Source: Methanosphaera sp. (lineage in GTDB: Archaea; Methanobacteriota; Methanobacteria; Methanobacteriales; Methanobacteriaceae). Taken from it: 64,000 nucleotides of DNA. The position numbers and the translations under genes are program-made. Where the stretch lies: contig NZ_JALEKL010000008.1 of NCBI RefSeq assembly GCF_022768985.1, positions 1 to 64,000 on the forward strand, given 5' to 3'. Numbering within the stretch: position 1 is the first letter of the stretch; each line of letters starts with the position of its first letter. This document shows positions 4,889 through 44,970 of the stretch, one piece after another. The notes below the pieces were generated by a model that made no database searches, was not told the DNA's origin, and was given only the letters and a program-made list of their open reading frames with translations.

Positions 4889-4918
4889 CCCCCCCTCACT
4901 TTTTATTTTTTTTTTATT
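4889..4918 (+). terminator. C-run plus T-tract terminator candidate
   Basis: Four bases after the stop codon there is a run of seven C followed by TCAC and T-tracts up to ten T long. The same C-then-T arrangement follows many genes in this window, so it is a good candidate for the transcript end. Confidence 0.55.
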
Positions 4919-5931: not shown

Positions 5932-8900
5932 ATGAATAAAAATATTAAGTTTTTATTTATAGGTGTTATGATACTCCTACTTGTATGTATGGGATCTGCA
6001 GCAGCAGTAGATGATAGTGGCAACACTACAGTTCATGCTACAGATTCAATTAAAACAACACACAATGTAGATGATACAACACTAGATGATGATATAAAAT
6101 CAACACCTAAAAATATAAACAAACAAACAAAAAAGGCAGTTGAAACAACACAAACAGCAACAGACTATGAATCACTAAAAAATGCATAGAACAACATCCA
6201 AGCAGATGGTGATAATACAACACAATACACAATCAACCTAAAAAATGGAAAATATGACTTTACACAAGAGCTAACATCAACAACTACAACAAATTCAAAA
6301 TACATCACAATAAATGGAGAAGATACAGACAACACAATATTTGATGCAGCAAACAAGACAAGATTCTTCACATTTAATGCAACAAACCAAGTAATAAAAC
6401 TAAACAACATCACATTTACAAATGGATTCAATGTAAAAAGAGGTGGTGCAATATATAATCAAGCTGATTTAAGCATAGAAAATTGTAAATTTACCAATAA
6501 CTCAATATATGCTACAGGAACCTCAGCACAAGGTGGAGTTATTTACACTATAGGTAATCTATCTGTAAATAATTCATCATTTACTGGAAATTTAATAAGT
6601 AATACAACTAAATATCCTAGTGCTCAAGGTGGATGTATTTATAAATTAACAAATGATAATACTATTAATATTAAATTTTCTACATTTAAAAATAATATGA
6701 TTTCAACATCAATAACACGTTCCATTGATGGTGTTGCAATTTATGCTAGATCTTACACTCTTGGAAATAACTCAATTAGTAACTGTTATTTTAAAAATAA
6801 CACAGCAACAAAATCAACTTCAACAGTATTTACTAATATAACAAATTTAAATCCAGTTGAAGATTCTGAAATGGTTACAAAATACTGTGTATTTGAAAAT
6901 AATATAGGTAATCTTGGTGGATGTCGTGGATTAGACTATAATTATTATGCTGATGGATCTAATAAGACTAATCTTCTATTATTAATTAATAATAATGATG
7001 AAAATAGCCTTATAAATCAGAAAAATAGTGATGTTGAAGTTAAACTTGTATTAAATAAATTATACAGCTATGAAGATTTAAAAGATATAATTGGTATAAA
7101 TTATGAACTTAACATAACTTCATCTAGTGACCTTATTAATACAACAGGTATGAAATTATCACCAGATAATAATTACAAAGTAAATATTGATATTTCAAAA
7201 CTTCCAGCAAACCATGAAAATATAACACTCTTTGCAAATGGATTTAAAATATCAGAAATATTCTGGGATTATACAAATGTCCAATTAAATAATATAACAA
7301 CAAAAGCAGGAAATACTATTGACCTAGTTGCTACATTTAAAACATCAGATAATAAAGAAATACCAAATGGAAAAGTAGCATTTAAAATAAATGATAAAAC
7401 AATAGGACATAGTAAAATAGCTAATGGAGTTGCAAAACTCACATATACAATTCCTGATAATTTCACAGTAAAAGACTATAAAATAAGTGTAGTATATGGT
7501 GGAAATGATAAATTTATCCAGGCAAGAGAAGATGCAACATTATCACTCCTAAAATCTGCAACAAAAACAACAATATCAAATAAAATAGAAGATAACAAAA
7601 TACAAATTAACATTAAAACAAACAATGAAGCAGACAAATCAGTAGTACGTGGAAAACTAACAGTGAAAATTAATGACAAAACCTACCAGAGAATCAATAC
7701 AACAGGTGATGTAACAGTTAACTACACAATCGATGAAAAACTATATGGTAAAGATGTGAAAATAACAGCAATATACAGTGAAAATACCAACTACATGGCA
7801 AGTATAGATGAAGTAGTTGAAAAAATACCAGCAAAAACACCGAAAACAAGTAAAATGCCAAAAACAGATGTAACAATAAACAACTACTATGTAGATGCAG
7901 ATACAGGATCTGATACAAATGATGGATCACAATCAAGTCCATTTAAAACAATAGCAAAAGCAATAAGTATGGTAAACATGACAAAAACACCATCAAACAT
8001 CTATCTTAAAGGAGTATTTAAAGGAATGGGAAATACAAACCTTACCATACCAGGAGATCTTACAATTACATTCATAGGATTAGAAGATGCAGCAATAGAT
8101 GGTGAAGTAAACTACACAATAAAAGAAAAACTAGATCTTGATGAATACTACTGGGGATCAAGTCGTATCTGGTGGCCATACCTTAATGGTACAGGAAACT
8201 GGGCAATGAACATAACACGTGGAAATGGACTAATTAAATTAGAAAACTTAACAATAAGAAACTGCTGGTCACCTGGTAGAAGTAGTATTAACTTATATAA
8301 TACATCAACTGTTGATAACTATGGAAATCTTGAAGTTAACAATGTAAGTTTCATCTACAACCATGGTGGAGTAGGTGCAGGTATACGTAACAATAATGGT
8401 GCAACAGTAGTAGTTAATAACTCAATATTTGATTCAAACCGTAAATCATCATCAACAGGAAACTATGGTGCTGGTATATATAACAATGGAACAGCAACAA
8501 TCATTAATTCAGTATTTAAAAACAACTATGCACGTTGGGGAACAGTGACAAACGATAAAAACATGACAATTATCAACTCAACAATACGTGATAATATTGG
8601 ATATGATGGTGGAAGTACATATAAAACAGGTAGTGGAATAACAATAAATACAGCTTCAACTAACTTCTATGAAGGAGGAAATGTTGAAAATGTTACAACA
8701 GTAATAGATGGATGTACATTTACTAATAATGATCAACTAGACATATATGCTGATAAATCAAATAATATAATTAAAAACAATCTCTTTAATAAATCAAAAG
8801 GAATTGTAATACCACAACCATCAAGCACTACTGGAAATAATTATAACTTCACAATTACAAACAATACATTCCTCTCACCTATAGGATCATCACTCTATAA

Positions 8901-11900: not shown

Positions 11901-13233
11901 ATTTGCAATAGAACTTAATGAAGCAGTAGGAAATAGAATAGAAAACAATACAATATTAACAAAAAATCTTGATGGAGACAAATGTATACTACAAGAAAAT
12001 ATTAATGATACAGTAAATAACTTTGTACAAAACAATAAAGATATTGAAGGATATCTATATTTAGCTTTAGTATTTAGCAACACCATAAATACAGCTAAAT
12101 TATCTGATATAATAAATATATCTGTTAATGTAGCAAATCCATCAAGTGGTAGTAATATTACAGCAGGAAATGTTATCTTTAATGTTAATGGTGTTAATGT
12201 AGGAGTTGTTGAAGTAGCTGATGCTACAGCATCAATTAACTATAAAATAACTGGTCTTGAAGGAGATAAATTATATGTAACTGTATATATTTATGATCCA
12301 AACTTCACATACAGAATTGCAGCAAGCTCAATGACTATTGATATTGAAAAACTTGGCTGTAAAGTTTTACTTCCTGATGTTATAAATAATGGTATTACAT
12401 CTACTATTACCTCTATTGTTGTTGGTGAAGATGGTAATATTGTTGAAGATGGAAATGTAACATTTAAATTAAATGGTGAAGTTATTGGTATTAAAGCTAT
12501 TCGAAATGGTGTTGCACAGCTTGTATTTGACAGTAGTTGTTATTCACTTAAAAACTATACAATAGAAGCTGTATATAATGGATGCAGTGTTTATAATTCA
12601 CAAAATGCATCAGCAACTCTTTCACTTATGAAGTATGATGTTGACTTTGAAGTTGAAGATGTAGTAGTAAATAATGGTAACATGGCAACACTCAGAGCAT
12701 ACGTCTATGATAGTTATGGTCATGCTCTTAATACTGGTCGTGTAGTATTTAAACTTAATGGTAAAACACTCAAAGATACAGATAACACAACATTATATGC
12801 TGATGTAATAGGTGGAGTTGCAGAAGTTAAATACATGATACCAGCAAATATGCAACCAAAAGACTACACACTAACAGCAGTAACAGAATCAGATAAATAT
12901 AACAAAGCAACAGAAAATGCAACACTAAAAGTAATGAAAACAACACCAAAAATAGTAGTATCACCACTAAATGTAAAAAGATCACAAAATACAACAATCA
13001 CTATAAAACTAGTAGATGACAATGAAAACAACATAGTAGGAAATACAAATATTGCAGTAAAACTTAATGGAAAAACAGTGATAAAACCAATGAAAATAAC
13101 AGATGGAATAGCACAAATAACACTTAACTTAACAGAATATAAAAACAGTAACTATAACATAACAGTAGTTGCAGGTGCAAATAAGTTATATGAATCATGT
13201 AGTATGACTGATGTACTTACAATAGAAGGATAA
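5932..13233 (+). pseudogene. Giant adhesin-like protein gene interrupted by an in-frame TAG
   Basis: The frame from ATG 5932 runs to 13233 (2434 codons including the final stop) with one internal stop, TAG at 6187-6189, codon 86. Upstream is AAGGAGA and a clear signal peptide (MNKNIKFLFIGVMILLLVC). Right after the TAG the frame continues with family-typical sequence (NNIQADGDN, then beta-helix turns such as RGGAIYNQ), so it is one gene. Restored, the order is signal peptide, first beta-helix (about 95-260), Ig-like modules (about 440-640), a second large beta-helix opening with DTGSDTNDGSQSSPFKTI (about 650), long NosD-like NNTITNNN repeats to about 2030, then Ig-like modules to the end. The remaining 2350 codons are uninterrupted, so the stop is recent or is read through. 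A change of TGG or CAG to TAG would explain it. No pyrrolysine system is visible here. Confidence 0.8.
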
Positions 13234-20269: not shown

Positions 20270-20529
20270 TTCTATTTTGATAAAATACCCTAATATTAAA
20301 ATATATATTCACATCCTCATATATAAAATATTATATAAAATTTTTTTTATCTAAAAAAATAAGTAACTACTACAAAAAATACAATAAAACAATTTCTAGA
20401 AAATTGAAATTAAAATAAATAGGGTTTAGATTATGAAAAGAAAAGTTTCATATTTTCTATTACTTATGATCATACTACTATTAATTCCTATAACAACAGC
20501 ATCAAATAATGATAATGTTAAAATAGATG

Positions 20530-20535
20530 AAAAAA
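20530..20535 (+). repeat. A6 tract at the first frameshift
   Basis: Six A after GATG. Removal of one A joins the signal-peptide frame to the downstream frame (DEK then VVHPYNGN). The tract is short, so it is a weaker slippage site than those at 21428 and 40377. Confidence 0.5.
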
Positions 20536-21427
20536 GTAGTACATCCTTATAATGGAAATATAGATGATAATCATAAAAGTAGTATAACAGGTGAAGATGA
20601 TCAACTAAGTGATGTAATCCCACAATATAAAGATATAAATTCAGATATAAAAGATGACTTTAAAAATATAAAAACAATCAATGAACTAGAAGATGATAGT
20701 AATTCATATTTTGATCCATCAGATGAAGAACTTAAAAAAGCACCAATAGTACATGTTGTTCAAGATGGAGTCTATGAATTTGAATCATTTAAAAGAGAAC
20801 CATTCAAAAAAGCAACAATTGTAGGACAAGGTCCTGATAAAACAACAATAACAGTATCAAATACAATAGAAATAAAAGAAAATAAAGGTCTTAGCTTTGT
20901 AAATGTTACAGTAATAGGATCAAAAGATGATCTTATTAAAAATCATGGAAATTTCTCACTAATAAACTGTGTTGTTGAAAACATAACAGCACAAGACAAT
21001 ACATATGGATACATAGAAAACTATGGAAATGTAACAATAAATAATACAATAATGCAAAACATATCCTTCTATAGCAATGCAATAATAAATGATAAATCAA
21101 CAAAACATACAAATAAAATTTCAATAAACAATTCAACATTCATAAATAACCATGTACGAGACCATGCAGGACTTTTCAGAATAAGAAATTCTAACTTTAC
21201 AATGGAAAACTCATTAATAATGAATCATGAAAATCTAACAAGATTCAAAGAACTAATAGATCTAAACAATACACAAAATGCAACAATAAGAAATACACAA
21301 TTTATATCAAATAAAATAACAACATCACTACTATATGTTGAAAATACAACACTAACTGTTGATAATGTAACATTTATAAACAATAAAGTAAAACAGTTCT
21401 CATCATGTATCTGTGCAATAGATTCAA

Positions 21428-21441
21428 ATATATATATATAT
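21428..21441 (+). repeat. (AT)7 dinucleotide repeat at the second frameshift
   Basis: Seven AT units sit inside beta-helix coding sequence. With seven the frame ends in TAA at 21442; with eight, or five, it reads Ile-Tyr repeats and then NNSVFENN, the expected family sequence. Confidence 0.75.
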
Positions 21442-24400
21442 TAACAATTCAGTATTTGAAAATAACACATCAATTGATGATATTGGTGGTGCAATAACAG
21501 CACATAACTCAAATTTATATATAAACAATACAAACTTCACAGGAAATAGTGCAAAAGATGGAGGATCAATTGTATCATTTAATGGAACAGCCCAATACTA
21601 TGATATGATAGAAGTTCCAAAAGAAGTAATAATTGAAAATTCAAACTTCATAAATAACACGGCAAGAAATTATGGTGGAGCAATATATAATGAATATACA
21701 AAACTTAAAATAAACAATACAAACTTCAAAGAAAATAAAGCCCAAAACATAACAACACTATATGCATATAATGCAAATATAACACAACAAAACACAAAAT
21801 ACACAAAAAACACAGCACTCATTGCATGTGACATATACATGCCATTTTCAACAATAAATGAAACAAACATAACATATACAAATAACAATTCAGTTATAAA
21901 AAGATACATAGTAAAAAGAAGCAGTGATGAAAACAACTATGACACATCATATCAAATACCACCAATAATACCATCACATTATAACTCAGCAGACTATGGA
22001 TATGTAACACCATCAAAAGATCAAATAGAAAGTGGAAACTGCTGGGCATTTGCATCACTATCAACACTAGAGACATGCTACATAAAAGCTACAGGTAAAA
22101 CAATAGACTTATCTGTAAATAACATGAAAAATCTAATGACACTATATTCAAAAAATGGGTGGAACAAACTACCAAATACTGGTGCATTTGATGACATGCA
22201 AATATCATACCTAATAAACTGGCTAGGACCAGTACTAGATGATGATAAATACAACACAGACAATCACATATCATCAGAACTAGAAAATGTAATACAAGTA
22301 AATTACATCTATGGAGTACCAATACGTTCAGGACCACTAGATAATGAACAGCTAAAAAAAGCAGTGATGCGATATGGAGCTGTATATACAACAGTATATG
22401 TATCAGATCGTAATCATAACATCTACAGAAATGACACATCATCAATAAACCATGCAGTGTCAATAATAGGATGGGATGACAACTACAGTCGTGAAAACTT
22501 CAAAAATAAACCAGCAGGTGATGGAGCATTCATAGTAAAAAATAGTTGGGGAATATCAAAAACAACATCTGAATACTACTATGTATCATACTATGATACA
22601 ACAATACTTACAGGTATAGATAACATGATAGAATGTGGAGGAATAACCTTCAAATTTGACAATGAAAAATATGACAAACAATACCACTATGACTATTCAG
22701 GAATATCAGACTGGTATATACCAGTTGATAACATTGCAACCTATTCAAATGAATATGAAATAGAAGAAAATGAAATAATAAAAGCATTTGGAACATATGT
22801 ATTTGATATAACAGCAAATGTAAATTATACAGCAAAAATATACCTAAATAACAAACTTCAATCAATAAAAATTGGAAGCTTTGATCAAAACTATGTATAC
22901 CAGAAAATAAATATAAATCCTGTAAATGCAAAAGCAGGAGATATGGTACGTGTTGAATTAACAGTACAATCAGATAAAACCACAGGAATTCCAGTTGAAA
23001 GTGCATACTATTCAAGATTTGTGCCAAATAATCTTTCAAAAATAAATAATAAATCATATCCTGACACAATAGCAGTACTTAAAATATATTCACAAAAAGC
23101 AACAACACAGATAAACATAGAAGAATACACAGAAACACAGATAACAGTAAATGTGATAAATCCAGACTATGAACCAGTAGATGAAGGAGAAATACAGATA
23201 AAATATGAAGATGAAATACTTGATGAAATAGCTGTAAATTCAACATCAACAATAATAGATACAACAGTATATGACAAACCTTCAATAACAATAAATTATA
23301 ACTATGCACAAAGCAATTACATTGCAGATAAAACAGTAGAACTTGAATATACACCAAAAACTACAAAACTAACAACTGATGAAATAGAAGATGCAAAAGT
23401 TAACAAAACAATACAAATAACAGGAACACTAACAGATGAAAACAATACAATAGTTGCAAATAAAAAAATAATACTAATCATAGATGATAACATAACAACA
23501 ACAAAAACAGATAAAAATGGTAGATATACATTTAACTACACAGCAAAATCAATGGGAAAATATGAAGGTAGTATATACTTCCTTGGTGATGCAGAATATG
23601 AAAAATCAAATACAACAATAAAATTCATGACACAAAAACTAGATGTACATATTATACTTAAAAAAATATATGCAACAGTAGGAGAAAACATCACATTTAG
23701 TGCCCAAGTTATTGATGAAAATGGAAACTATGTAAATGGTGGAAATATGGTCTTTAAATTAAATGGAATAACACTAAAAGATGATGACTCCTTTAATCAA
23801 AGTCGCAGTCCAATGAAATTTAATGTTGAAGGATGTGAAATATCAAAAACAATAGTTGCAACAATATATATACGTGATGCAAAAAACTTAACAGCATCAT
23901 ATAGTGGAAGTAGTATCTATAATGGATGTACATCAGATGTATCAGTTGTAGATATTGCAAAACGTTATGCAAATATTACAGCAACAACAGATGTTGAAAA
24001 TATAAATCAGGGACAGACAATAAAAATAACAGCAAATATATGGGACACAACAAAAAATTCAAATAATTCACTTGTTGATGTAAATGGATATATAATAATA
24101 AAAGTTGATGGAATTACACTAAAAGATAAAAATGGAAATCAGCTGAAAGTCAAAGTTGAAAATGGAAAAGCAGAGTACCTATATAATATTGGTAATATGA
24201 AATCAACAAGTAATGGTAAAGTGATACAGCATGAAATTGTTGTAATATTTACAAACAACAACTACTATCCAACAGCAAGAGATACAACATACTTCACAGT
24301 AAATAAAACACCAGTTGAAATTGATGAAGTAGATGCAACAGTAAATACAACAAACAATGAATTAACACTAAAAGCAATAATTAGAGATTCAACATTTCCT

Positions 24401-24661
24401 GATGACATCATACTTGTTAAAGAATCAATTAGTCATATAATAAAAATTGACGGCAAAACACTTAAAGATATAGAAGATCAGACAATTAAATTTGAAGCAA
24501 CAGATGGAATAATTGATGTTAATGTAGCAGTACCAGAGCAGAACAACTACAATAATATAACAATTATACTTCAAGATTCACCATACTATCAGTCAGATAG
24601 AATAACAGAAGAAATAAAAACTGTAAATTAGTAGTAGTAGTGAAAAACCCTGTTTATAATT

Positions 24662-24690
24662 CCCCCCCCCAATTTTTACTTTTTTTTTAA
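24662..24690 (+). terminator. C9 plus T-tract terminator candidate
   Basis: A run of nine C, then AATTTTTAC and nine T, about 30 bases after the stop codon. It is the clearest copy of the C-then-T pattern in the window. Confidence 0.55.
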
Positions 24691-24826
24691 AATTAATATT
24701 TTATGTTACTTTAATTATTTGAAAACTATTTATATTATTTATTTTAGATATTAATACAACAAATAGGGAGGATAAAAACCTTTCTCCTAAAATTTTATAT
24801 AATATAATATGGGAATCAAGATTATT

Positions 24827-27800
24827 ATGAAGAAAATATTAATTTTCCTATCTCTTATTATTATAATAGTTGGACTTTCAACAACAACAGCAGCAACAGA
24901 TGAGATAAACACAACAACAACATCATCTATAATATCACATAATACAACAACACAAGATGTATGTGATAATGCTGTTAATGAAATAAAACTTAAAGATAAT
25001 AATAGTAATAAAATAAATGCACATACAAATGTAGAGATAAAAACACAAAAATCCGGCATACAACAGGTAAAACAAGCAAAATATACAACAGATACAGAAG
25101 TTAATACTAATGAAAGCTATGATGATATAATCTATCTTGAAGATGGAATACACTACTATGACTTTCTTAATATTACAAGAAATACCCATATAATAGGACA
25201 ATCACAAAACAATACAATAATAGTAAATAAAAATACACACAAAAATGCAATGATACAAAATAATGCAAATCTTAAAATTACCAATCTAACAATAACAAAT
25301 TCACAATACCTTACAATACGAAACTATGGAAACTTAACACTAGATGGAGTGATACTTACAAATTCAACAGGAGAATATATATCAGATGGATTTATTAAAA
25401 ACTATGCAAATATAACAATAAACAATTCATACATTACAAATATATTCTATCATGAATCATCAATAATAAATGATGTATCACAAACACCAGATAACTACAT
25501 TAAAATAATAAATTCAAACATTAAAAACAATACAGCAATGTATAATGCAGCATTATTTAGAATAGAAAAAAGTCATTTTATTATGACTAATACAACAGTT
25601 GAAAATCATATAAGTAATATAACACCAAATCTCATAATATTTAAAGATACAAACGATGTAACTATTGAAAATTCAACATTTAAGATGAACAGTATTTTAA
25701 AATCAATTATAAATACTCAAAAAGCAACACTGAACATTATAAATACAAAATTTGAAAATAACAAGGCAAATAATTCTGCTGTATGTATCACATCTGATAT
25801 GTCAAATATTATAATAGATGGATGTGAATTTATAAATAACACATCAGTAAATGATGCAGCAGGTGTAATATTATCATATAATAGTAACTTATCTGTAAAT
25901 AATTCAAAATTTATACAAAATAGTGCAAAAGATGGTGGTGTTATTGTTGCAGTTAATGGATCAGCAGATGATGATTTTAATATAATAAAAGAACCATCAA
26001 AAATAACAATATATAACTCAGATTTTATGGAAAATACTGCAAAATATATGGGTGGTGTATTATATATTGAATATGCAGATTTAATAGTTAACAATACAAG
26101 CTTTAGAAAAAACTGTGCACTTAATGGTGCTGTAATATATACAGATCATAGTAGGGTAATATTAAATAATACAAATCTTACACAAAATAATGCATATAAT
26201 ATATCAACAGCATACTTTTATAACTCAAATATAACACAAAATAATTGTAACTATGATGAAAATACTGCATTATATGCAACAGATATGTATATGCCATATA
26301 ATATTGAATTTAAAGACAACAACAATACATATACAAGTAGTAATTCTAAAGTATTTGATTTAATAATTAAAAAAAGCTGGGATAATCACATATACAATGA
26401 AAATATAACAATACCAGAAACACTACCTCAATATTATAACCTTGCAGATTATGGATATATAACACAAATAAAAAACCAGGTAAGTAGTGGTAACTGCTGG
26501 GCATTTGCTGCAATTGCAACAGTTGAATCATGTCTAATAAAATCAACAGGTCAGGTATATGACTTATCTGAAAATAATATGAAAAATATAATGGCACTAT
26601 ATTCAAAAAATGGTTGGATAAAACAGACAAATGATGGTGGATTTGATGATATGCTACTAGGCTATCTACTAAACTGGATAGGACCAGTACTAGAAGTTGA
26701 TGATCAATACAATCCATATGGCTATATATCATCTGAAATATCAAATATAATACAACTATCAAATGTATATGGAATACCAACACGAAAAAATGCAACAGAC
26801 AACACACAAATAAAACAGGCAATAATGAAGTATGGTGCTGTATATTCACCAATATATACATCATATTCATATAATGGATGTAACCTGTTTTATAATCAGA
26901 CAACAAATATTAACCATGCAATTACAATAATAGGATGGGATGATAACTACAGCCGCTACAACTTCAGAAATACCCCGGCAGGAGATGGAGCATTTATTAT
27001 CAAAAATAGTTGGGGTGAAAATGCAGGAGATCATGGATACTTCTATGTATCATACTATGACACAACAATACTAAGCAGTATTGATGATATGACAGGCTGT
27101 GGAGGATTCACATTCACATTTGACAACATGAAATTTGACAAACAATACCACTATGACTACTCAGGATACAATACATGGTTTTGTGAGAACACCAATACAA
27201 TCACATACTCAAATGAATATAAAACAGTTGAAAATGAACAAATAAGTGCATTTGGAACATACATCTATGATATAACATCAAATGTAAATTATACAGCAAA
27301 AATCTATGTAAATAACAAACTAAGATATACACAAAGTGGATGTTTTATGAAAAACTACATCTATGAAAGAGTAGATTTGAAAAAACCTGTATATACAAAA
27401 GCAGGAGATGTGGTATGTATTGAATTAACAGTTAAATCTGATAAAATTGCAGCCGTACCAATAGAAGTTGATACATACTCACGCTTCATTAAAAACAGCA
27501 ACTCAAAGATAAATAATGAATCATATACTGATGCTGTAGTATCACTAAAATTATATTCAAAAAAGACACAAACACACATACAAACAGAAAAAACAGACCA
27601 TAACACATATACCATAACAGTATATAGCCCAGATTATGATATACTAGATAATGGAACAATAACCATAAAATACAACGAAGAAATACTTGATATAATAGAT
27701 GTTATAGAAGAACATACAACACTAGACACATCAAAATATATGACACCTGAAATAATACTAGAATATAACAATGGTATCTATAATACAACATCAACAATAG

Positions 27801-29095
27801 AACTTACAGATAAAAGACAAACACAAATTACAATAAATACAATTGAATCAGTAAAATACAATACAACCATTAATATAAATGGAAAACTACTCGATACTAC
27901 AAATGGCAATAGTATGGGAAACTATAACTTAAATATAAAAGTTAATAATAAAACATATACAACAACAACAGACAATAATGGATACTACAACTTTAAATAT
28001 AAAACAACAACCATAGGCTTAAATAACATAACAGTAACATACAATGGTAATGAAGTATATGAACAATCAACTAACATGACATCCTTTATAACACAGAAGC
28101 TTGATGTAAAAATTATTCTAACAAAGATTAACTCAACTGTAGGTGAGGATATAATACTTAATGCAACATTTATTGATGAATATGGCAACTACATAAATGG
28201 TGGAAATATGGTCTTTAAGATCAATGGAATAACACTAAAAAGTGATGATTCATTTAACAAAACAGCACCTGTTATGAAATTTAATGTAAATAATGGTAGT
28301 GTATGTAAAGTAATTGTTGCAACCATATATATTCGTGATGCAAAAAATCTAACAGCCACATATAGTGGAAGTAGCATCTATAATGGATGTACATCAAATG
28401 TATCAGTTGTAGATATTGCAAAACGATATGCAAATGTATCCATAAATGTTAATACAAAAATACTCAACCAGGGAGATAAACTTGAAATTACAGCTTCAAT
28501 TAATGATATTACACCTAAATCTGATCGTAGCCTTATAGATGAGGGTGGATATATCATGATAAAAGTTGATGGATGTACACTAAAAGATAAAAATGGAAAT
28601 CAGCTGAAAATTAAAGTTGAAAACAATAAAGCCCAATACATATATGAACTGCCATATCCAATGAAAGCAAAAACAACAGATGGTAAAAATATAGATCATG
28701 AAGTCATTGTGATATATACAAACAATAACTACTATCCAACAGCACGAAGTAATATGACATTCAATGTTAATTTAGCACCTACAAGTATTATAAATACAAA
28801 TGCGGTGGTAAATAAGACATCACACACATTATCATTAAATGCAACAATATATGATACATATAATTGCAAGACAATATCTGGTGGTGTTGAATATATTCTT
28901 AAAATTAATGATAAAACACTGAAAGATCCAAAAGACAATAATACCATGATATTTAAAGCAAAAAATGGAATTATCAATATAAGTAATTTAATAATACCAA
29001 AATCAAATAATTATAATAATATTACAATCATTCTTAAAGATTCACAGTATTATCAAACAACACGAAATACACAGGCAATTAAAACAATAATATAG
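24827..29095 (+). CDS. Surface papain-like cysteine peptidase with beta-helix and Ig-like modules
   Basis: This is the intact member of three tandem paralogues, 1422 residues. An in-frame ATG at 24809 would add six residues; the start at 24827 opens directly with MKKILIFLSLIIIIVG and a cleavage site near TTTAA, which suits a signal peptide, but no strong ribosome-binding site separates the two. Residues about 80-500 are beta-helix turns. The C1 peptidase domain follows: oxyanion Gln in KNQVSSG, Cys at 26495-26497 (GNCWAFA), His at 26915-26917 (NINHAITIIGWDD), Asn at 27005-27007 (KNSWGE). Next come a beta domain and three Ig-like modules. It should be secreted and held outside the cell. Substrate unknown; a surface or host protein is conceivable. 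It differs from pseudomurein endoisopeptidases (C71), whose motifs I do not see. Confidence 0.85.
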   Translation: MKKILIFLSLIIIIVGLSTTTAATDEINTTTTSSIISHNTTTQDVCDNAVNEIKLKDNNSNKINAHTNVEIKTQKSGIQQVKQAKYTTDTEVNTNESYDDIIYLEDGIHYYDFLNITRNTHIIGQSQNNTIIVNKNTHKNAMIQNNANLKITNLTITNSQYLTIRNYGNLTLDGVILTNSTGEYISDGFIKNYANITINNSYITNIFYHESSIINDVSQTPDNYIKIINSNIKNNTAMYNAALFRIEKSHFIMTNTTVENHISNITPNLIIFKDTNDVTIENSTFKMNSILKSIINTQKATLNIINTKFENNKANNSAVCITSDMSNIIIDGCEFINNTSVNDAAGVILSYNSNLSVNNSKFIQNSAKDGGVIVAVNGSADDDFNIIKEPSKITIYNSDFMENTAKYMGGVLYIEYADLIVNNTSFRKNCALNGAVIYTDHSRVILNNTNLTQNNAYNISTAYFYNSNITQNNCNYDENTALYATDMYMPYNIEFKDNNNTYTSSNSKVFDLIIKKSWDNHIYNENITIPETLPQYYNLADYGYITQIKNQVSSGNCWAFAAIATVESCLIKSTGQVYDLSENNMKNIMALYSKNGWIKQTNDGGFDDMLLGYLLNWIGPVLEVDDQYNPYGYISSEISNIIQLSNVYGIPTRKNATDNTQIKQAIMKYGAVYSPIYTSYSYNGCNLFYNQTTNINHAITIIGWDDNYSRYNFRNTPAGDGAFIIKNSWGENAGDHGYFYVSYYDTTILSSIDDMTGCGGFTFTFDNMKFDKQYHYDYSGYNTWFCENTNTITYSNEYKTVENEQISAFGTYIYDITSNVNYTAKIYVNNKLRYTQSGCFMKNYIYERVDLKKPVYTKAGDVVCIELTVKSDKIAAVPIEVDTYSRFIKNSNSKINNESYTDAVVSLKLYSKKTQTHIQTEKTDHNTYTITVYSPDYDILDNGTITIKYNEEILDIIDVIEEHTTLDTSKYMTPEIILEYNNGIYNTTSTIELTDKRQTQITINTIESVKYNTTININGKLLDTTNGNSMGNYNLNIKVNNKTYTTTTDNNGYYNFKYKTTTIGLNNITVTYNGNEVYEQSTNMTSFITQKLDVKIILTKINSTVGEDIILNATFIDEYGNYINGGNMVFKINGITLKSDDSFNKTAPVMKFNVNNGSVCKVIVATIYIRDAKNLTATYSGSSIYNGCTSNVSVVDIAKRYANVSINVNTKILNQGDKLEITASINDITPKSDRSLIDEGGYIMIKVDGCTLKDKNGNQLKIKVENNKAQYIYELPYPMKAKTTDGKNIDHEVIVIYTNNNYYPTARSNMTFNVNLAPTSIINTNAVVNKTSHTLSLNATIYDTYNCKTISGGVEYILKINDKTLKDPKDNNTMIFKAKNGIINISNLIIPKSNNYNNITIILKDSQYYQTTRNTQAIKTII

Positions 29096-29291: not shown

Positions 29292-32200
29292 TTAAATAAG
29301 AAAATATCAATTTTTCTTACAATGACAACAATTCTACTATTAACAATGACAGCAACTACAGCAGCACAAGACAATATTACAGATAATACTGTTAATCCAG
29401 AACTAGAAAAACAATATACAACAACATCCCAAATTAATGAATATGAAAATAGTAGAAACAATAGTGATAATAAAATAATAAAAAAAGAACAAACTAGACG
29501 TGAAATATCATTAATTCTACCTGAAGGTAGAAAAGCATATTAAACAAACAAAACATACGTCAAGATACAATAATGCATGGAAAAGACAGAAACAAAACAA
29601 TAATCTATGCAGATAACACAAATGATAGTTCAATACTATTTGATATTGGACGAGATAAAAAACTTACACTGACAAATCTAACACTACAAGGACAACAAGG
29701 AATTCTAATACGAAACTATGGAACAGTAATACTAGAAAATGTAACAGTACGAAATTCAAGAGCAAACATAATTGAAAACTATGGAAATATCACAATACGA
29801 AACTCAAACTTCACATCAATTTCATCACAACATATTATAACTGATAAATCATCAGCTACAGGAAAAAACATAGAAATCATAAATACAGAATTTAACAACT
29901 GTAATGTTGATAAAAACACAGTATTTCTAGATATTAAAAAATCAGATCTAAAAGTTGAGAATGTATCATTTAAAAACATAGATAACATAAAAAACATAAT
30001 AACACTACGAAATACATCAAATGTATTACTTGATGGAGTATATATGCTTAAAAATACACCAAGTGAGGTGCAATTGTATCATATTATTCAAACTTCACAA
30101 TTAGAAATTCAGTATTTGAAGAAAACAAGGCAGTAAATTCAACAATTATACTACATAATGGATCAAACCTAAATATAGATACTACACGCTTCATTAAAAA
30201 CAAACAAGCATTAATGCTTAATAAATCAGTAGCATATATAAACAATAGTCAATTTATATCAAACTTCATAAAAAGTGAAGGTGGAGCAATAGCATCAATA
30301 AATTCAAATTTAACAGTTAACAATTCAAACTTCACAAACAACACTGCAGAATATGGTGGAGCAATAGTAATTGTAAATGGAACAAGCCAAGAAGCAGTAA
30401 GTTCATATGTAAATATTATTGAATGTCCATCTGAAACATACATCTATAATACAAACTTTAATGGCAATATTGCAACAAAAGCTGGTGGATGTATATATGA
30501 TGAATATTCAAATATTGTAGTTGACAATTCAAATTTCACAAACAACACTGCAGAAGATACATCAGCAATCTATACAGATAAAGTAAAATTCACACTTAAC
30601 AATACAAACTTCATAAAAAATATTGCAAATATAACAGTATATGCATATGAAACAGATATTATACAACAAAATACAAACTACATACAAGATGTTGCAGAAA
30701 AAGTAGTTGACATGTACATACCATATAATGTTGGATTTATTGATGAAAACAACACATATTCACGTGATAATTCAATAATTAAAACATTTATCATAAAAAC
30801 TAATGATATTGATACAAACAACTACACCTATAATATGACAATAGCTGATGTACTACCAAGCTATTATAATCTTAATGATGATGGATATATAACACCAACA
30901 AAAGATCAGCTAGATGGTGGAAACTGTTGGGCATTTTCAACATTATCAGCACTAGAGTCAAACATACTTAAAGCTACAGGAAAAACATACGACCTATCTG
31001 AAAACAACCTTAAAAACCTAATGGCACTATATTCAAAATATGGAGCAAATAGTGTACAAAACATGGGTGGATTTGGATTAACAATGGGTGTTGGATATAT
31101 CATTAACTGGCTAGGACCAGTACTAGAAGATGATGATGTATATGATCCACATGATATTATTTCATCAGAACTTAAAAATATAATGAAAGTATCAAATATA
31201 TACAAACTACCACAACGTATGAATGCAACAGACAATAATGCAATAAAACAGGCAATACTAAAATATGGAGCATTAGGATGTTCAATAATGGTTGATGATT
31301 CACAACTAGGACATAACTTCTATGTAAATAATACAACAAATATTAACCACTTAGTTATGATTGTTGGATGGGATGACAATTATAGTCGTTATAACTTTAA
31401 AAATACACCAGCAGGTGATGGAGCATTTATTATTAAAAATAGTTGGGGAGATAAGGGTGATAATGAATTCTACTATATATCATACTATGACACCTCAATA
31501 AATTGTAAATCTATAAGTCAGATAAATACATCAGAAATATGGACATTTATTCTTGATAATAATAACTTTGATAAACAATACTTCTATGATATAAGTGGTT
31601 GTAACTTCTATTCATTTAATAGTAAAAATATCACCTATTCAAATGAATATGAAATACAACAAAATGAACAAATACAGGCATTTGGAACATACATCTATAA
31701 TCCTACAGTAAAGACCAACTACACAGCTCAAATCTATGTAAATGGAAAACTTAAAACTACACAAAAGGGAGTATTTAGTAAAAACTACTACTACCAGACT
31801 ATAAAACTCGCAAATCCAGTAGATGTAAAAGCAGGAGATGTGGCAACTATAAGACTAACACTAAAAAGTAATGAAATTGTAGGAGTACCTGTTTCAATTG
31901 CAAACAATCAACATATAATATCAACAAACAATTCAAAAATAGAAGATGAAATCTGTGAAGGCTATGTAGTTTCACTAAAACTATACACAAACACCAAAAA
32001 GACAGATATGCAAGTAAAAACAACAGGAGATCATGAAGTTACAATTAAAATAACAGACAAAGACTTCAAAACATTAAACAATGGAAAAATAACACTAAAA
32101 TATAACAATAAAACACTTGACGTGGTAGATGTAAAATCTGATGAAACAAAGATAAACCTATCAGAATATGATACACCTAAAATAACATTCTACTACACAG

Positions 32201-33186
32201 GTTATGGTGATGATAGCACAAATTACACAATAAACATGAATATCTTCAAAGATACAACAAAAATAACACTAAACATAACAGATACAAAGATAAACCAGAC
32301 AATCGCAATACGAGGAAAACTAGTTAACTCAGAAAATCAGGCAATAAAAAATGCAAACATCACAATACAAATAGATAACAAGATATACACAACAACTACT
32401 GATAAAAATGGACAATACTCACTTAACTACACCTCACCTAAGGCAGGACTTAGAAATGTATATGTAACATTTGCCGGTGATGAAAACTATCAGAAATCAG
32501 ATATAAAATCATCATTTAAAGTAAATAAACTCAACATAAACTTTGAAATACAGGAAATTAAAGGAGTAATAGGTGATACTATTACAATAAAAGCCATACT
32601 TCGTGATGAAAATGGAAACACATTCACTGGTGGAAATGTAGTATTTAAATTTAATAATGTAACACTAAAAGAGGATGGAACATTTAGTCGTGATGTAAGT
32701 CCACTTAAAGTATCAGTAGAAAATGGAATTGTAACAATAACACTTCCTGCAACAAAAGAGATGCGTGATGCAAAAAATCTTACAATAGTCTATAGTGGAT
32801 CAAGTTACTATAATAATGCAACATCACAGCCAATATGTGTAGAAATTGCAAAAAGATGTGCAGACATACACATGAACATAATACAAAATACTACAAAAAA
32901 TATGACACAAGCTATAATAACAGCAACAATAAATGAAACAACAAAAAAATCAGAAAATACCATGATAAATAATGATGACTATGTAATAATTAAAGTTAAT
33001 GGATGTACAATCAAAGATAAAACAGGAAAACCAGAAAAAATCAAAGTCGAAAACAACAAGATACAATATGTATATAAAATACCTGCAAATACTAAAAATA
33101 CACAATACAAATTTGATGTAATATACAGTAGTCCATACTACTATCCAAATTGTCGTGATAGTGAAATTATCACAATTAAAAACTAG
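29292..33186 (+). pseudogene. Decayed third papain-like peptidase/adhesin gene
   Basis: The third paralogue appears degraded. A strong GGAGGAGGT (29272-29280) is 11 bases before codon 29292, which reads TTA and is followed by NKKISIFL, so the original ATG seems lost; the next ATG is 29322, inside the signal peptide. The frame stops at 29541-29543 where one T is missing, and again breaks near 30062-30070, where a G of a GGAGGTGCA appears lost. The rest (30214-33186) is a long open frame with beta-helix, C1 peptidase (Cys 30925-30927, His 31348-31350, Asn 31438-31440) and Ig-like modules. Neither break is on a simple repeat. The catalytic residues remain intact, so decay is recent or the domain is still used. 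Confidence 0.8.
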
Positions 33187-37277: not shown

Positions 37278-40200
37278 TTAATAATAATAATAATTATTTC
37301 TCACAGTTAAATCATCAGTTGATTCGGGTATTTGGTTATATGATGGGCTATTACTAATTATTCTGTTGTTTGAAATTTCACCACGAGCATATTCTTCACA
37401 TATTGCTCCACCATAACTTGAAGCACTATTATATTTAAAGGTACAATTTTTAATTATTGATTTATCAGGTTCTACATGTGTACCATCACCTGACCATGAA
37501 CCTTCTATTGATATTGCTCCACCACATTCTGCTGAATTTGATTGGAATGTAGAGTTTTTAATACTTAGAAGTTGTATATTTGATACTGCTCCACCATATG
37601 TTCCTGCTTTATTTGAAGAGAAGTTTGAGTTTGTTATTGTTACATTTGCTTTATTTGTAAAGTTTCCACTATCAATTACTCCTCCTGAGTAGTAAACTTC
37701 ATTATTATTAAATTCGGAGTTTGTTATTGTTACAAATTTATTGTTATAGATTACTCCACCTGCTGAAGCATAGTTACTTGTAAATTCAGAATTTTTTATG
37801 TTAAGTGTTCCATTATTAAAGAATACTCCTCCAACATAATCATAACGTGTTGAATAGTCACTATATACTTCTGAGCTGTATTTTCCACATCCTTTTATTT
37901 CTATGTTTTCTATGTTTACTTTGTTTCCTTTTGCTATGTTCATAAATCTGTGACTGTGTGTTCCTGTTATTGTACTTTTATTTGGTGATTTGATTGTAAG
38001 TGTTTTTGAGTATGAATTTTTCCAGGTTATTTCATCATATACATAAATGTCATTCATTACATTTATTGTTGTATCTTTTGATGATTTTTTTGCATTGTTT
38101 ATTGCATTGTAGAAGTCATTTTCTGTGTATACATTAATTTCTCCTGCTTTTTTAACGTTGTAGTTGATTTCTATTGTATTTGTATAATCACTTGGATATG
38201 ATATTGTCACTATTTTTTGTCCTGAGGTTGTGAATGTAAGTGTTTTTGAAACAAGGTTGTTGCTTGATTTTTTTACTGAGTAGGTTGTTGATCCTATGTT
38301 GAATTTAACATATGCATTTCTTGATAGTGATGAATCTTTTATTGGTGAGGTTATTGTAACTTGATTTCCTGTCATGATCTGTTTTGTACTATTTAGTGTG
38401 AAGTAGTTGTTTTCTAGTTGCATTTTTTTATCTGTTAATATTTCAATTCCTGTTCTAGTTGGTTGTGTGAATTCATTGCCATATATGTAGCAGTTTCCAC
38501 CATAGTTTATGATTGTGTTTGCTTCATATGTTGCATTGTTATCTGATATTGTTGAGTCTTCTATTGTTAGTGTTCCTTTGTTGTTGTATGTAAGTCCTGC
38601 TCTTATTGCTTCATTATTTCCTGCTGTAACATTAATTAGTGTAAGATTTCCTCCATCATTGTAGTTTACTCCACCATTTGCTTCTGCAAAGTTTCCATAT
38701 ATTTCAAAGTCTCTCATTTTTAATGTTCCAAGGTTGTAGTTTACTCCTCCACGTGTTGCCCTGTTAGTATTTATCCAGGAGTCATCACCATTCATTATTA
38801 TTGTTGCTGATCTTTTATTGTAATTTACTGCACCATTGTTTTGTGCAAAATTATAAAAGTATGAATCAGCTTCTGAGTTTATTGTTCCATAGTTGTAGTT
38901 TATTCCACCATTGTTTTTTGCATTATTTTTTCCATAGTAGTTATTATATGAATTGATTGTTCCATAGTTGTAGTTTATTGCTCCATCTGTTGCATTGTTA
39001 CGTCCAAATGTTATATTTTTCATTGTTATTGTTGCATCTTTACAATTAAAGTTTACTCCACCTATTTTTGCATAACAGTAGTTTATTTGTGTATCACCTT
39101 GCATTGTTATTGTTGAACCTTGTGAGTTATAATTTACTCCACCTTTATTTGTTGCATTTGCTGATTCAATTTCTATATTTTCCATGGTGATTTGTCCATT
39201 GTTATAGTTAAATCCACCATTTTCTGCTTCTCCTGTCATTTCATAGTATTCATCTTCATATACTGAATTTTCCATGTATAGGTTTGCTTTATTGTTGTTG
39301 TAGTTTGCTCCACCATTTTTTGCATATCCTTTAAGTTGTGTACTTTTAATATAAAGGTAGCAGTTTTTATCGTTATAATTTACTCCACCATTCATTGTTG
39401 CCTTATTTGAGGTAAGATTTGATGTGTAGATGTACATTTGTCCATTGTTATAGTTTACTCCTCCACGTTTTGCAATGTTTTGTGTTGCATTTATACGATA
39501 AATTGAGGTATTACCATTGTTAAAGTTTACTCCACCATTGTTTGTTGCTTTGTTGTTGTATGCTTCAATTTCTACAATTTTAGTTTCAGCATTCTTGTTT
39601 GTGTAGATTACTCCTCCAAAGTTTAATGCTTGGTTGTTTGATATGGTTGATGTTTCAAGGTCTGTGTAGAATTTATCATTATAGATTACTCCACCATTTT
39701 GTGTTGCTTTATTGTTTTTAAATGTTGAATTTTTAATATATGTAGATCCTAGGTTGTATACTGCTCCTCCACGTACTGCTGTGTTATATGAGAAATATGA
39801 ATCTGTTATATCCATTTGTCCATTGTTGTTGTATTGACCATTGTTATTATATACAGCTGCACCATTTGTAGCGTAGTTGTTTGAAAATGATGAATTTTCT
39901 ATTGTTACATTACCTTGATCATTGTATATTACTCCACCATTTTTAGATGCTGTGTTATTTAGGAATATTGAATCATAAACATTTAATGTTCCTTTGTTGT
40001 ATATTACACTTCCACGTTGTGCTGATGCATATCTTACTTTGAAATCATTAAGTGTGAGTGTGTATCCTTTTTCTACTTGTATAAATTGGGTGTTATTTCG
40101 TCCATCAAATAAGTAGTTATTTGCATATATTGTAAGTTTTTCTGTATAACGTGAATTTCCCCATACTATTGGTTTTGTTATGTTGTAATTTCCATAGCCT

Positions 40201-40593
40201 AGGTAGATTATTTCATGGTAATTGCCGTAGTAATAATTGTTATTTTTTATTTTTTCAATTGTATTATAGAGATCATTATACCCATATACATAACGGTAGG
40301 ATTTTGTTGTTTTATTGGTTGTTAGTTTTGTTTTATTTGCTGTTTTTGTTGTGTTTTGTTTTTGTGTTTTTACATCTTTTTTTTTCTATATTTTTAGTTT
40401 CTGCTATTTTATCTGTATTTTCTACTTTTTGTTGCATTTGATGTACATCAGGTGTCATATCAGCTGTTGTTATTTGTGCTTGTGTTGATATTTCATTTTT
40501 ATCATCAATATCTGCAGCATTTACTGCTGATACACCTAGTATTATCACAACTAAAGTAACTAAAAATAGCATTGATAGTTTTTTAGTTTTCAT
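37278..40593 (-). pseudogene. Adhesin-like gene switched off by an A9 tract frameshift
   Basis: The gene begins at ATG 40593 (GGGAG upstream) with the signal peptide MKTKKLSMLFLVTLVVII and, as written, ends after 86 codons. At 40377-40385 the coding strand has nine A. With eight A the frame continues GEKK-DVKTQKQ-like sequence, through the shared 'YNDLYNTIEKI' motif, to a stop at 37278, giving about 1104 residues. I checked this frame from 40376 to 39815 and it is open but lacks an ATG. The product would be a beta-helix of GGVNYNN repeats, a middle beta domain (SYPSDYTNTIEINYN) and a second beta-helix. The tract lies just after the signal peptide, the classic place for phase variation, so I prefer 'OFF phase' to 'dead gene'. 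Confidence 0.82.
40377..40385 (-). repeat. A9 homopolymer tract, candidate phase switch
   Basis: Nine T on the plus strand (nine A in the coding strand). A8 (or A11) restores the 1104-residue adhesin frame; A9 truncates it. Confidence 0.8.
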
Positions 40594-41004: not shown

Positions 41005-44000
41005 ATGATTAACATGATACAAAGAAGTAAATTAATCCCTTTTATGTTTATTTTATTATTTTTTCTGGCAATAACAACTGTAAATGCAGCACAAATAGAT
41101 GATACAGGCAATAATACTCAATTGTCACATAAAAGTAGTGAAGTAGTAACAGCTGTTGTATCACAGCCAGATATAAAAGTAGATGAAAACATAAAGATGC
41201 AAAAAAATATAAAAAAAGAACAAACACGTAATGTATCAAGTTTTGATGAATTATATGATACAATAGAGGATATAAAAACAAATTCAAATGAAACATCACA
41301 AACTATTAACCTTAATGCTGGAAACTATAATATTACAAAGACAATAAACTGGGGAAATACAACACATACAACAAAAACACTTACAATTAATGGAAACAAT
41401 ATAAAAGTTGATGGACAAAGACAATACCAGTTTATGAGTATATCAAATAATTACACACTTAATATCTACAATATCATATTAGAAAACTGTAGTGGTTCAG
41501 TATTTAAATCAAGTGGTAATTTAACAATTATTAACTCAAACTTCAAAAACAACAATGCAACAAGTGGCGGGGTTGTATATAATGAAGGATTTTTAGTTCT
41601 TAGAAATTCAAACCTTACAGACAACCATGCAACTAATAGTGGAGCATCAATATATAACAAGGCAAATGCTAGTATTACAAATACCTTATTTAAAGACAAC
41701 ACAGCAAAAACAGCTGCAGGTGTATATAATGATGGTGGAATGACAAATATTATAGATTCAAACTTCATCAGTAACATTGCAGATAATGGTGGAGCCCTTC
41801 TAAATTCAAATAATGGTACTATGAATATTATCCAATTATACTTCTTTGATAATAATGCAACAGTAGATGGTGGAGTATTATATAACAAAATAGGAAATTT
41901 AAATATTATACACTCAAATTTTACAAATAACAATGCAAAAAATAAAGCATCTGTAGTATACAATAGTGGAAGTCTACTAGTTGATGGATGTATACTAAGT
42001 GATAACTATGATAAAGAAAATTCTAGCATAGTATAAGATAACACAGCAGATAGTAGCATGGTATGTAAAAATAATATAATATCAAATACCTACACATCAA
42101 AGACAAAACAACAAATACGTATCTATTCACCAGTAAATAGAATAGATGAAACAGATGAGGTAATCTTCACAGTTGACGGTAGTAACATCACAGCTATAAA
42201 TTCAGATGATGGATCATATATTGACTATACATATAACACAGCAGGAAGAAAAACAATACAAGTTACATCACCAATACTACCTGAAAATAATACAATAACA
42301 TTAGTTGTTAAAGTTGAAGTAGAAATTGACGCGATAAATCTTAACACAATAGATGACACACCAGTATTTAACAATATTACACTAAAAGGAAACATAACAA
42401 ATAATGGAATACTTGTAGGTGATGATGTACCTGTTATAATACAACTAAATGGAAGATATTATAATTCAACAGTAAAAAATGGTATTATTAATGAAACTAT
42501 AGATACATCAAATCTTAAATCTGGAATGTATATAATAGCAGTAATTGCAAATCCTGACACTTCAAATGTAAAAGTTGAGACAACCATACTAAACATGATA
42601 AAACGTGAAATAGACAGAATTGATCTTAGAGTTGATAATGTAAATAAACAGCCAATCATAATTACAACCACAACATATAATGAGAATAATAATACCATAA
42701 ATTCAGGACGTGTAATATTTAAAGTTGATGGTAGTGTAGTTGGTAGTGTAAATGTAGATGAAAATGGAGTAGCAGTACTTAATTACACAGATATTCTATG
42801 GGCAGGAAACTATGATATAAGTGTAGAATATACAAGTGACTACTACAACATGAAGACAAATAAAACAAAAATAGCAACAAGAAATGTGATTGACACACCA
42901 ACTATTGAAACAAAAACTGTGACATATTCAACATCATCAACAATAAAAGTAAATCTTACATCAAATGGAGCAAAAGTTGCAGGAAGTATAGATTGTGATG
43001 CAAAGATAATTATAAATGGAGTAGAACGACAGCTTAATACAACATTTAGAAGTGGAAAACTTACAATAAAAATACCAAATGACATACCAGCAACAGGTAA
43101 TGAATCTGATGGATATGACATCATAGTAAATATCAAAGAAAATGACATGTATGATGCAAAAGAGTTTATGGCTAAAGTATATATCCAGAAATCAAATGCA
43201 ATACTACTACTTGATGTAGCAAATAAAAATATAACAACACTTGACACTCTCAAAGCAACAGTACAGATAATATCACCATCAGAACTTGATGGAAAAATAG
43301 CATTTACAATACTTAATAAATCCGATGTTATTACAACAATATATGCAGACATCATAGATACACAATCAACACTAAACTATGACCTTAATGGAACCATTCC
43401 AGCTGGTGAATATACACTAAAAGCTGCAATTACATCACCTAACTTTGAAGCAGCACAAGACATGACCAAAATAAACATAACACCTGTTGATGTAGCAGAC
43501 CATGAAATCATAATAGGTGAAATAAAAACACTAGAGAACATTAAAATCAATGAAATACTTCTTGATGTAAATGGAGATGAACTAAAAGGAACCTCAAATA
43601 TTGAAGTACTAATAGGCAACAAATCAGTACTTAATGTGACAATCACTGGTGGTAATTTAACTATTGAAATTCCAACAAATACACTAAAAGCAGCAACATA
43701 TAATACAACAATAGTACTTAAAAATGTAGCATATAACATGAAAGTATTTATGACACAATTTAATATAACACGTCGTGATGTAGATATAACAATAGCACAC
43801 AACAATCCCAAAGTACTCGGTGTACTTCAAATAAATACAACAATCTACAGTGCTATGAAATCTGTTGAATGTGGTGTTGTAACATTTAAAATCAATGGAT
43901 GTACACTAAAAGATACAAATGGAAATACAATAAAAGTAGCAGTAAATAGTGGTGTTGCACAACTTAACTACACACTACCTGAAAGTATAGGACAAGGACT

Positions 44001-44970
44001 CTACAATATAACAGCACTATATTCTGATAAAAACTACTACAACAGTAATATAAAAACAGTAAATAATACACAAATTACAAGAGTTGACATGGAAGATATA
44101 ATTGTTGAACCAGTTGAAATAAGAAAAGGTGAAAATACAATAATTGACATAACACTCAGAGATACTAATGGAAATACTATAGTTAAAGATGTTAAAGTTG
44201 TAATTAAACTTAACAATAAAACATTTATTCAAACTAAAACAACAGATGGAATATTAAACCTTGAACTTAACACATCAACACAAAAAGCAAAACAACACAC
44301 AATAGATGTAATATTTGATAAAAATAGCCTCTACAACCAGCAAAGATGCACCATAAATTTAACAATCAAAAACAGAATAGCTGATATTAAAATAAATACA
44401 CTCAACACAAAAACCACACAAACACTACCAATAGTTGTAATAGTACAAGAAGATGGTCAAAGTGTAAATGGTGGATTTGTAACATTTAAACTTAATGGTA
44501 AAACACTAAAAGATACACAAGGTAATGTGATTTATGCTGAAGTTGTTGATTCAAAAGCAATACTTTCATATAAACTACCAACCACCCTTGGATCTGGAAA
44601 CTACACATTATGTGCACAATTTAGAAATAGTGACTTTGAAAGCACAGAAGCTGAAACAAGCCTTGAAATTACAAAATCAATAATAAATAATGAAACACTT
44701 GATTGTATGGTTGTAAAGTATGGATCTGACCTCACTATTAATTCAGACATATTTGACATGGCAGGAAGTAAAATTAAAGCAACAACCAAGGTGACAGTTA
44801 AATTAGATGATAAAACATTTATAACTACAGCAATTGTAAATGGAAAACTTAGACTTAAAGTTAATACAACCAATATGAAAGTTGGAAATCATACAATAAT
44901 AGTTAAACTTGGTGAAAACTCATTATACTCATCTGCTAGGATTGAAATTCCAATTATTGTTGAAAATTAG
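41005..44970 (+). pseudogene. Adhesin-like gene interrupted by an in-frame TAA
   Basis: One frame runs from ATG 41005 to 44970 (1322 codons) with a single internal stop, TAA at 42034-42036, codon 344. The start has a signal peptide (MIQRSKLIPFMFILLFF after MIN, cleavage near VNAA) and the shared motif SSFDELYDTIEDIKTN, then beta-helix turns such as GGVVYNEGF and GGALLNSNNG. The stop falls near the end of the beta-helix. Beyond it are one to two capping strands and about eight Ig-like modules with FKINGCTLKDTNG-type cores. No frameshift or repeat tract is near the stop. No ribosome-binding site is evident. It could be a nonsense mutant; read-through or a truncated beta-helix product is the alternative. 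Confidence 0.8.

Follow-up and report, generated by a model that had tools for sequence, protein, structure and literature searches.

In a Methanosphaera genome, nine consecutive adenines (A9) throw the adhesin-like gene at 37278-40593 out of frame, and the gene could in principle flip back on. We interpret it, with moderate confidence, as an OFF allele that arose through slippage by one base and belongs to a repertoire of adhesins in which genes are being lost through several types of mutation. The window, i.e., the whole stretch of 64,000 nucleotides that was analysed, corresponds to positions 1-64000 of contig C8 in the source genome (G000, a 15-contig draft of 1,608,130 bp with 29.4% GC), which was read entire, in stretches. 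The coordinates of the features discussed are collected in Table 1.

Read directly from the minus strand, the window DNA gives tatagAAAAAAAAAgatgta, with the nine A occupying 40385-40377. Starting at the ATG at 40593, frame 0 translates as MKTKKLSMLFLVTLVVIILGVSAVNAADIDD...TKNIEKKRCKNTKTKHNKNSK* and closes at 40333 after 86 codons, and the base just past the A9 opens a second frame, offset by one base from the upstream ORF, which runs for 1032 codons to the stop codon at 37278-37280. The change of frame is confined to a 53-nt interval in which the A9 is the longest run, a coincidence beyond chance given how strongly A9 is under-represented inside the genes of this genome; both frames and this interval agree with the original prediction that the tract interrupts the gene. 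Removing one A joins the 86-codon ORF to the 1032-codon frame in a single frame of 1104 residues, as had also been predicted. The gene therefore combines a mononucleotide repeat in the 5' part of its reading frame with a body that is otherwise intact (1032 clean codons), and a one-unit change of the tract toggles the frame between open and closed. No further disabling lesion was found in this gene, and the claim that nothing but the A9 interrupts the gene is thus correct for this locus.

The body is rich in Asn and Thr with repeated GGVxYN motifs, and gives weak matches to the Pfam families Chlam_PMP repeat (22.8, cut-off 20.6) and Beta_helix (20, below the cut-off of 25.9). With its signal peptide, its Asn/Thr-rich repeat body and its membership of a multicopy family, the product is an adhesin-like protein of Methanobacteriales, and its relatives are encoded in all 20 genomes of the genus examined. 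It shares the signal peptide, the Asn/Thr-rich beta-helix-like repeat body and the multicopy nature of the adhesin-like proteins (ALPs) described for Methanosphaera and Methanobrevibacter (PMC11532034), and differs from them in that its frame is broken; the main text of that paper uses none of the words frameshift, pseudogene, phase and homopolymer.

Table 1. Features of the window and of related genomes, with coordinates in the window unless a locus is named
Feature	Position or locus	Strand	Remark
A9 homopolymer, site of the frame change	40377..40385	-	sequence and homopolymer scan
Upstream ORF, 86 codons	40333..40593	-	signal peptide and charged K/T/Q-rich linker; adhesin body out of frame
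Signal peptide MKTKKLSMLFLVTLVVIILGVSAVNA	40516..40593	-	hydrophobicity criterion; cleavage site by eye
Adhesin body, 1032 open codons	37278..40376	-	repeated G-G-V-x-Y-N beta-helix-like motifs
Intact paralogue, 991 aa	33946..36921	-	adjoins downstream; 37% identical over the alignment
Nonsense codon TAG in adhesin 5932-13233	6187..6189	+	Trp in homologues; 2347 clean codons behind
Frame-change interval of adhesin 20433-24631	20527..20552	+	past the signal peptide; holds A6
Second frame change of adhesin 20433-24631	21422..21444	+	at an (AT)7 repeat
Frame-change interval in adhesin 29573-33186	30067..30136	+	no long repeat
In-frame nonsense codon TAA breaking adhesin 41005-44970	42034..42036	+	
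C9 tract before adhesin 24809-29095	24662..24670	+	31 nt past the preceding stop, 147 nt before the start
Poly-G tract loci of G001	L156, L165, L168, L169, L170, L171, L174, L175		
Poly-C tract loci of G016	L178, L201, L211, L212		

We propose that DNA polymerase slipped during replication and added one A to an in-frame A8 within the lysine-rich linker. Translation of the A9 allele would then stop after 86 codons and yield a short secreted peptide in place of the adhesin, and the open frame would be regained if one A were lost, presumably at the raised rate typical of such runs. Translation from 40593 ends early, and a start at 39815, where the long frame has its first ATG, would give a product without signal peptide, so no surface adhesin should be made from this allele. 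We infer the direction (A8 to A9) and recency of the change, as well as its reversibility in practice and any benefit.

The case for slippage draws on two further genomes: G001, from a related species, which was read in parts, with regions partly picked for long G runs, and G016, a finished relative of the genus on a single contig of 1,767,403 bp, of which 800 kb were read; comparisons across species thus involve one genome per species. Four frame breaks in linkers behind adhesin signal peptides were found in G001, at A9 in L165, A9 in L159, A8 in L175 and A7 in L165. Among the signal-peptide adhesins of G000, of the parts of G001 and of the 800 kb of G016, called by simple composition rules, 5 of the 12 genes with a broken frame had a run of at least eight A in the 5' region, against 4 of the 58 intact ones (Fisher P = 0.0056, resting on these 12 broken genes). 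The recurrence at linker A-runs and the excess of long runs in broken genes make slippage the likely cause of the A9 frame break, and a mutation of this origin would be revertible in principle. For 7 of 11 frame changes the longest homopolymer lay within the interval concerned, where 1.7 were expected (P = 2e-4), and for 5 of 11 when only runs of at least eight were considered (P = 0.014), with ties ignored and genes treated as independent. Taken together, the association and the interval tests suggest that slippage is a main cause of frame breaks in signal-peptide adhesins.

A scan of all long homopolymers in G000 revealed only a handful of true frame breaks: the A9 described here, a G8 in the adhesin at C7:14610, a G8 in the restriction-modification gene at C9:64138 and an A9 in a copper ATPase gene. 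Three apparent OFF genes (C1:24248, C1:111891 and C3:29144) were discarded, being by eye intergenic tracts before ordinary starts. The scan also gave a candidate break at an A9 (C4:54878) in an mvhD-like gene, whose relatives match only the MvhD part.

At least four more adhesin loci of the window (5932-13233, 20433-24631, 29573-33186 and 41005-44970) are broken without a long homopolymer, and adhesins of G000 outside the window carry further single-base indels and one nonsense codon. Near the 5' end, 7 of 30 adhesins are broken in G000 versus none of 12 in the 800 kb of G016, and most broken adhesins of G000 have nonsense or indel lesions without long runs. Slippage at homopolymers would be one frequent route of adhesin loss among several. 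The original prediction had also taken the roughly 1000 clean codons downstream of the tract as an argument against a dead gene. That argument fails, because the neighbouring adhesin 5932-13233 keeps 2347 clean codons after a plain nonsense codon.

It is doubtful that the tract is a dedicated contingency locus, in which the A-run would be kept because on/off switching of a surface protein pays. Such a locus would be expected to look much like this one, with the tract just past the signal peptide of a surface gene and a single revertible lesion in an otherwise intact gene; breaks recur at linker A-runs in G001, and other homopolymer tracts lie at adhesin and restriction-modification genes in the genus. 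On the other hand, most breaks in sister adhesins are lesions outside such tracts, the G11-G14 runs of G001 are much longer than the A9, and runs of at least eight A are avoided in adhesins as in all genes. Against expectations obtained by shuffling synonymous codons, no enrichment of A-tracts was found in the adhesin frames of G000 (A8: 4 seen, 10.7 expected; A9 among open frames: 0 seen, 0.5 expected), and the non-adhesin genes of that genome hold 6 A9 where 60 were expected and 60 A8 where 216 were expected. We therefore rejected A-tract enrichment in adhesins as a signature of selection, since runs of at least eight A are rarer than expected. In M. stadtmanae, mononucleotide runs of at least eight are extremely under-represented in coding DNA and over-represented in intergenic DNA (PMC4060949). 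We see no sign in these sequences that the A9 tract is maintained for switching. A true on/off switch at the A9 is possible, and only possible, because the same genome holds many adhesins broken in ordinary ways. The proposal of slipped-strand phase variation at the A9 is thus partly supported: the break does fall at a slippage-prone tract past the signal peptide of a surface gene, a pattern that recurs in another species, and it is the maintained switch that finds no support, given the avoidance of long A-runs in adhesin frames and the sister adhesins broken by nonsense codons and non-tract indels.

The gene might instead be intact, the true tract being A8 and the ninth A a consensus or assembly error, a caveat that the original prediction had itself raised. 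Homopolymers are the commonest site for such errors and G000 is a 15-contig draft. An error at the A9 is nevertheless possible but unlikely, because none of 388 conserved genes of G000 changes frame, even though some 70 in-frame A/T runs of at least eight sit in its non-adhesin genes; the adhesins also bear clear nonsense mutations, which are not an error of the homopolymer type. We equally regard it as improbable that the adhesin is expressed in spite of the A9, through slippage of RNA polymerase that would leave some transcripts with A8. Such transcripts could yield a little protein, nine-A runs being prone to slippage during transcription in many bacteria (PMC1088944), and a copper-ATPase gene of the genus has a conserved frame change at a junction that is A9 in G000; in G016 the junction is A10 and the frame is kept. 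We know of nothing on RNA polymerase slippage in Methanosphaera itself. The ribosome would be of no help here: the locus shares with programmed frameshifting an A-rich slippery site ahead of the frame change, but the direction needed is +1, and a programmed -1 shift at the A9 was ruled out because the -1 frame reads AAG ATG TAA and stops at once.

The copper ATPase deserves separate mention. In 18 of 20 genomes of the genus, the first HMA domain of CopA and the rest of the protein are encoded with a constant -1 offset, whereas G016 (A10) and apparently G018 have CopA in a single frame; in G000 the A9 is followed by TAA. The junction, for which the DNA was read in G000 (L097:2931-3185, minus strand; C11:22934) and G016 (L190 near 3024, minus strand), resembles a conserved site of -1 frameshifting or slippage. 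In E. coli, copA contains a frameshift/slippage site making CopA(Z).

Other tracts may be better placed for switching than the A9. Runs of G11-G14 stand ahead of nine adhesins in G001, and in seven cases the run precedes a conserved AACTATTC element, common to these loci, by 79-93 nt; the P value for poly-G placement in this genome is biased, because the regions were partly chosen for such runs. The 800 kb of G016 contain six G/C runs of at least eight, four of which are C9-C11 tracts located 128-228 nt before adhesin starts, so that 4 of 12 adhesins have one upstream. The probability of this placement by chance is 7e-11 for any position, and allowing eightfold for a bias towards intergenic DNA raises it to 3e-7. 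For the poly-G and poly-C loci named in Table 1, the tract lies 105-235 nt ahead of the adhesin start codon. Lying about 100-260 nt upstream of adhesin starts in both genomes, the long G/C runs are better switch candidates than the A9 and would act by phase variation in the promoter region. The picture is less clear in G000, where the two adhesin-upstream C-runs of at least eight follow a stop codon at a distance of 31 and 41 nt. Among 23 intergenic C-runs of at least seven in this genome, including those at 4889-4895 and 24662-24670 of the window, 11 follow a stop codon of the same strand by no more than 45 nt (background 4%, P = 5e-10). The C9 at 24662 is therefore ambiguous as a promoter tract, being 31 nt past a stop, where C-runs cluster, and the two runs may be 3'-end signals instead. 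T-rich DNA often comes after the C-runs of G000, which may thus signal 3' ends.

Several tracts lie within genes. A G8 right past the signal peptide puts a 1589-codon adhesin of G000 out of frame (L046:14610-14617, minus strand; C7), and another G8 interrupts the frame of a type IIG-like restriction-modification gene immediately ahead of the FDVIIGNPPY motif (L056:4138-4145; C9:64138). The latter gene encodes Eco57I methylase and HsdR N-terminal domains, and its intact paralogue at C1:87430 has NDGGFDVVIGNPPY at the position of the G8. These two G8 runs are stronger switch candidates than the A9. An HsdS-like specificity gene that runs off its contig has an in-frame A10 close to its 5' end (L059:17683-17692; C8:101683), and an in-frame A9 is found inside a type IIG-like gene (L052:1835-1843; C14). 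In G016, A9 tracts occur at frame changes of an integrase-like gene (L204:5963) and a carbonic-anhydrase-like gene (L210:11159), and in G001 a G10 lies in frame within the Gly-Gly-Val repeat motif of an adhesin (L167:3450; C23). It is tempting to speculate, though we put this forward only tentatively, that Methanosphaera practises homopolymer phase variation through upstream poly-G/C tracts together with tracts in adhesin (A8-A9, G8) and restriction-modification genes (G8 OFF, A9/A10 ON). The A9 at 40377-40385 would be a weaker member of such a system, which to our knowledge would be the first in archaea.

Slipped-strand frame switching is of a known kind, and an archaeal adhesin case would add a member to it. 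With Helicobacter SabA and similar bacterial systems (PMC2715451), the likeness lies in a 5' mononucleotide tract in a surface gene, where one base toggles the frame and the gene body is intact. The present case differs from those systems in its archaeal host, in its short A9 in place of a long G/C tract, and in that the A-tract class is avoided, not enriched, in adhesin frames. The GeneTack survey (PMC3711429) has a comparable category, with a frame transition at poly-A of at least seven in a surface gene, and classes frameshifted poly-A/T genes as phase variation or pseudogenes; the word adhesin is absent from its text, and the A9 case concerns a single genome. The original prediction called such switching hardly described in archaea, in agreement with a 2025 review that names archaeal loci as a future expansion (PMC11868660). 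Text searches for accounts of homopolymer phase variation in methanogens gave none, most subscription journals being outside their scope. One of the main means by which bacteria vary their coats is slipped-strand switching of surface proteins, and the pmp genes of Chlamydia pneumoniae undergo homopolymer slipped-strand phase variation. If adhesins of Methanosphaera do not switch, the window records an archaeal adhesin repertoire lost gene by gene; if they do, a gut archaeon would vary its surface by homopolymer length, as commensal bacteria do.
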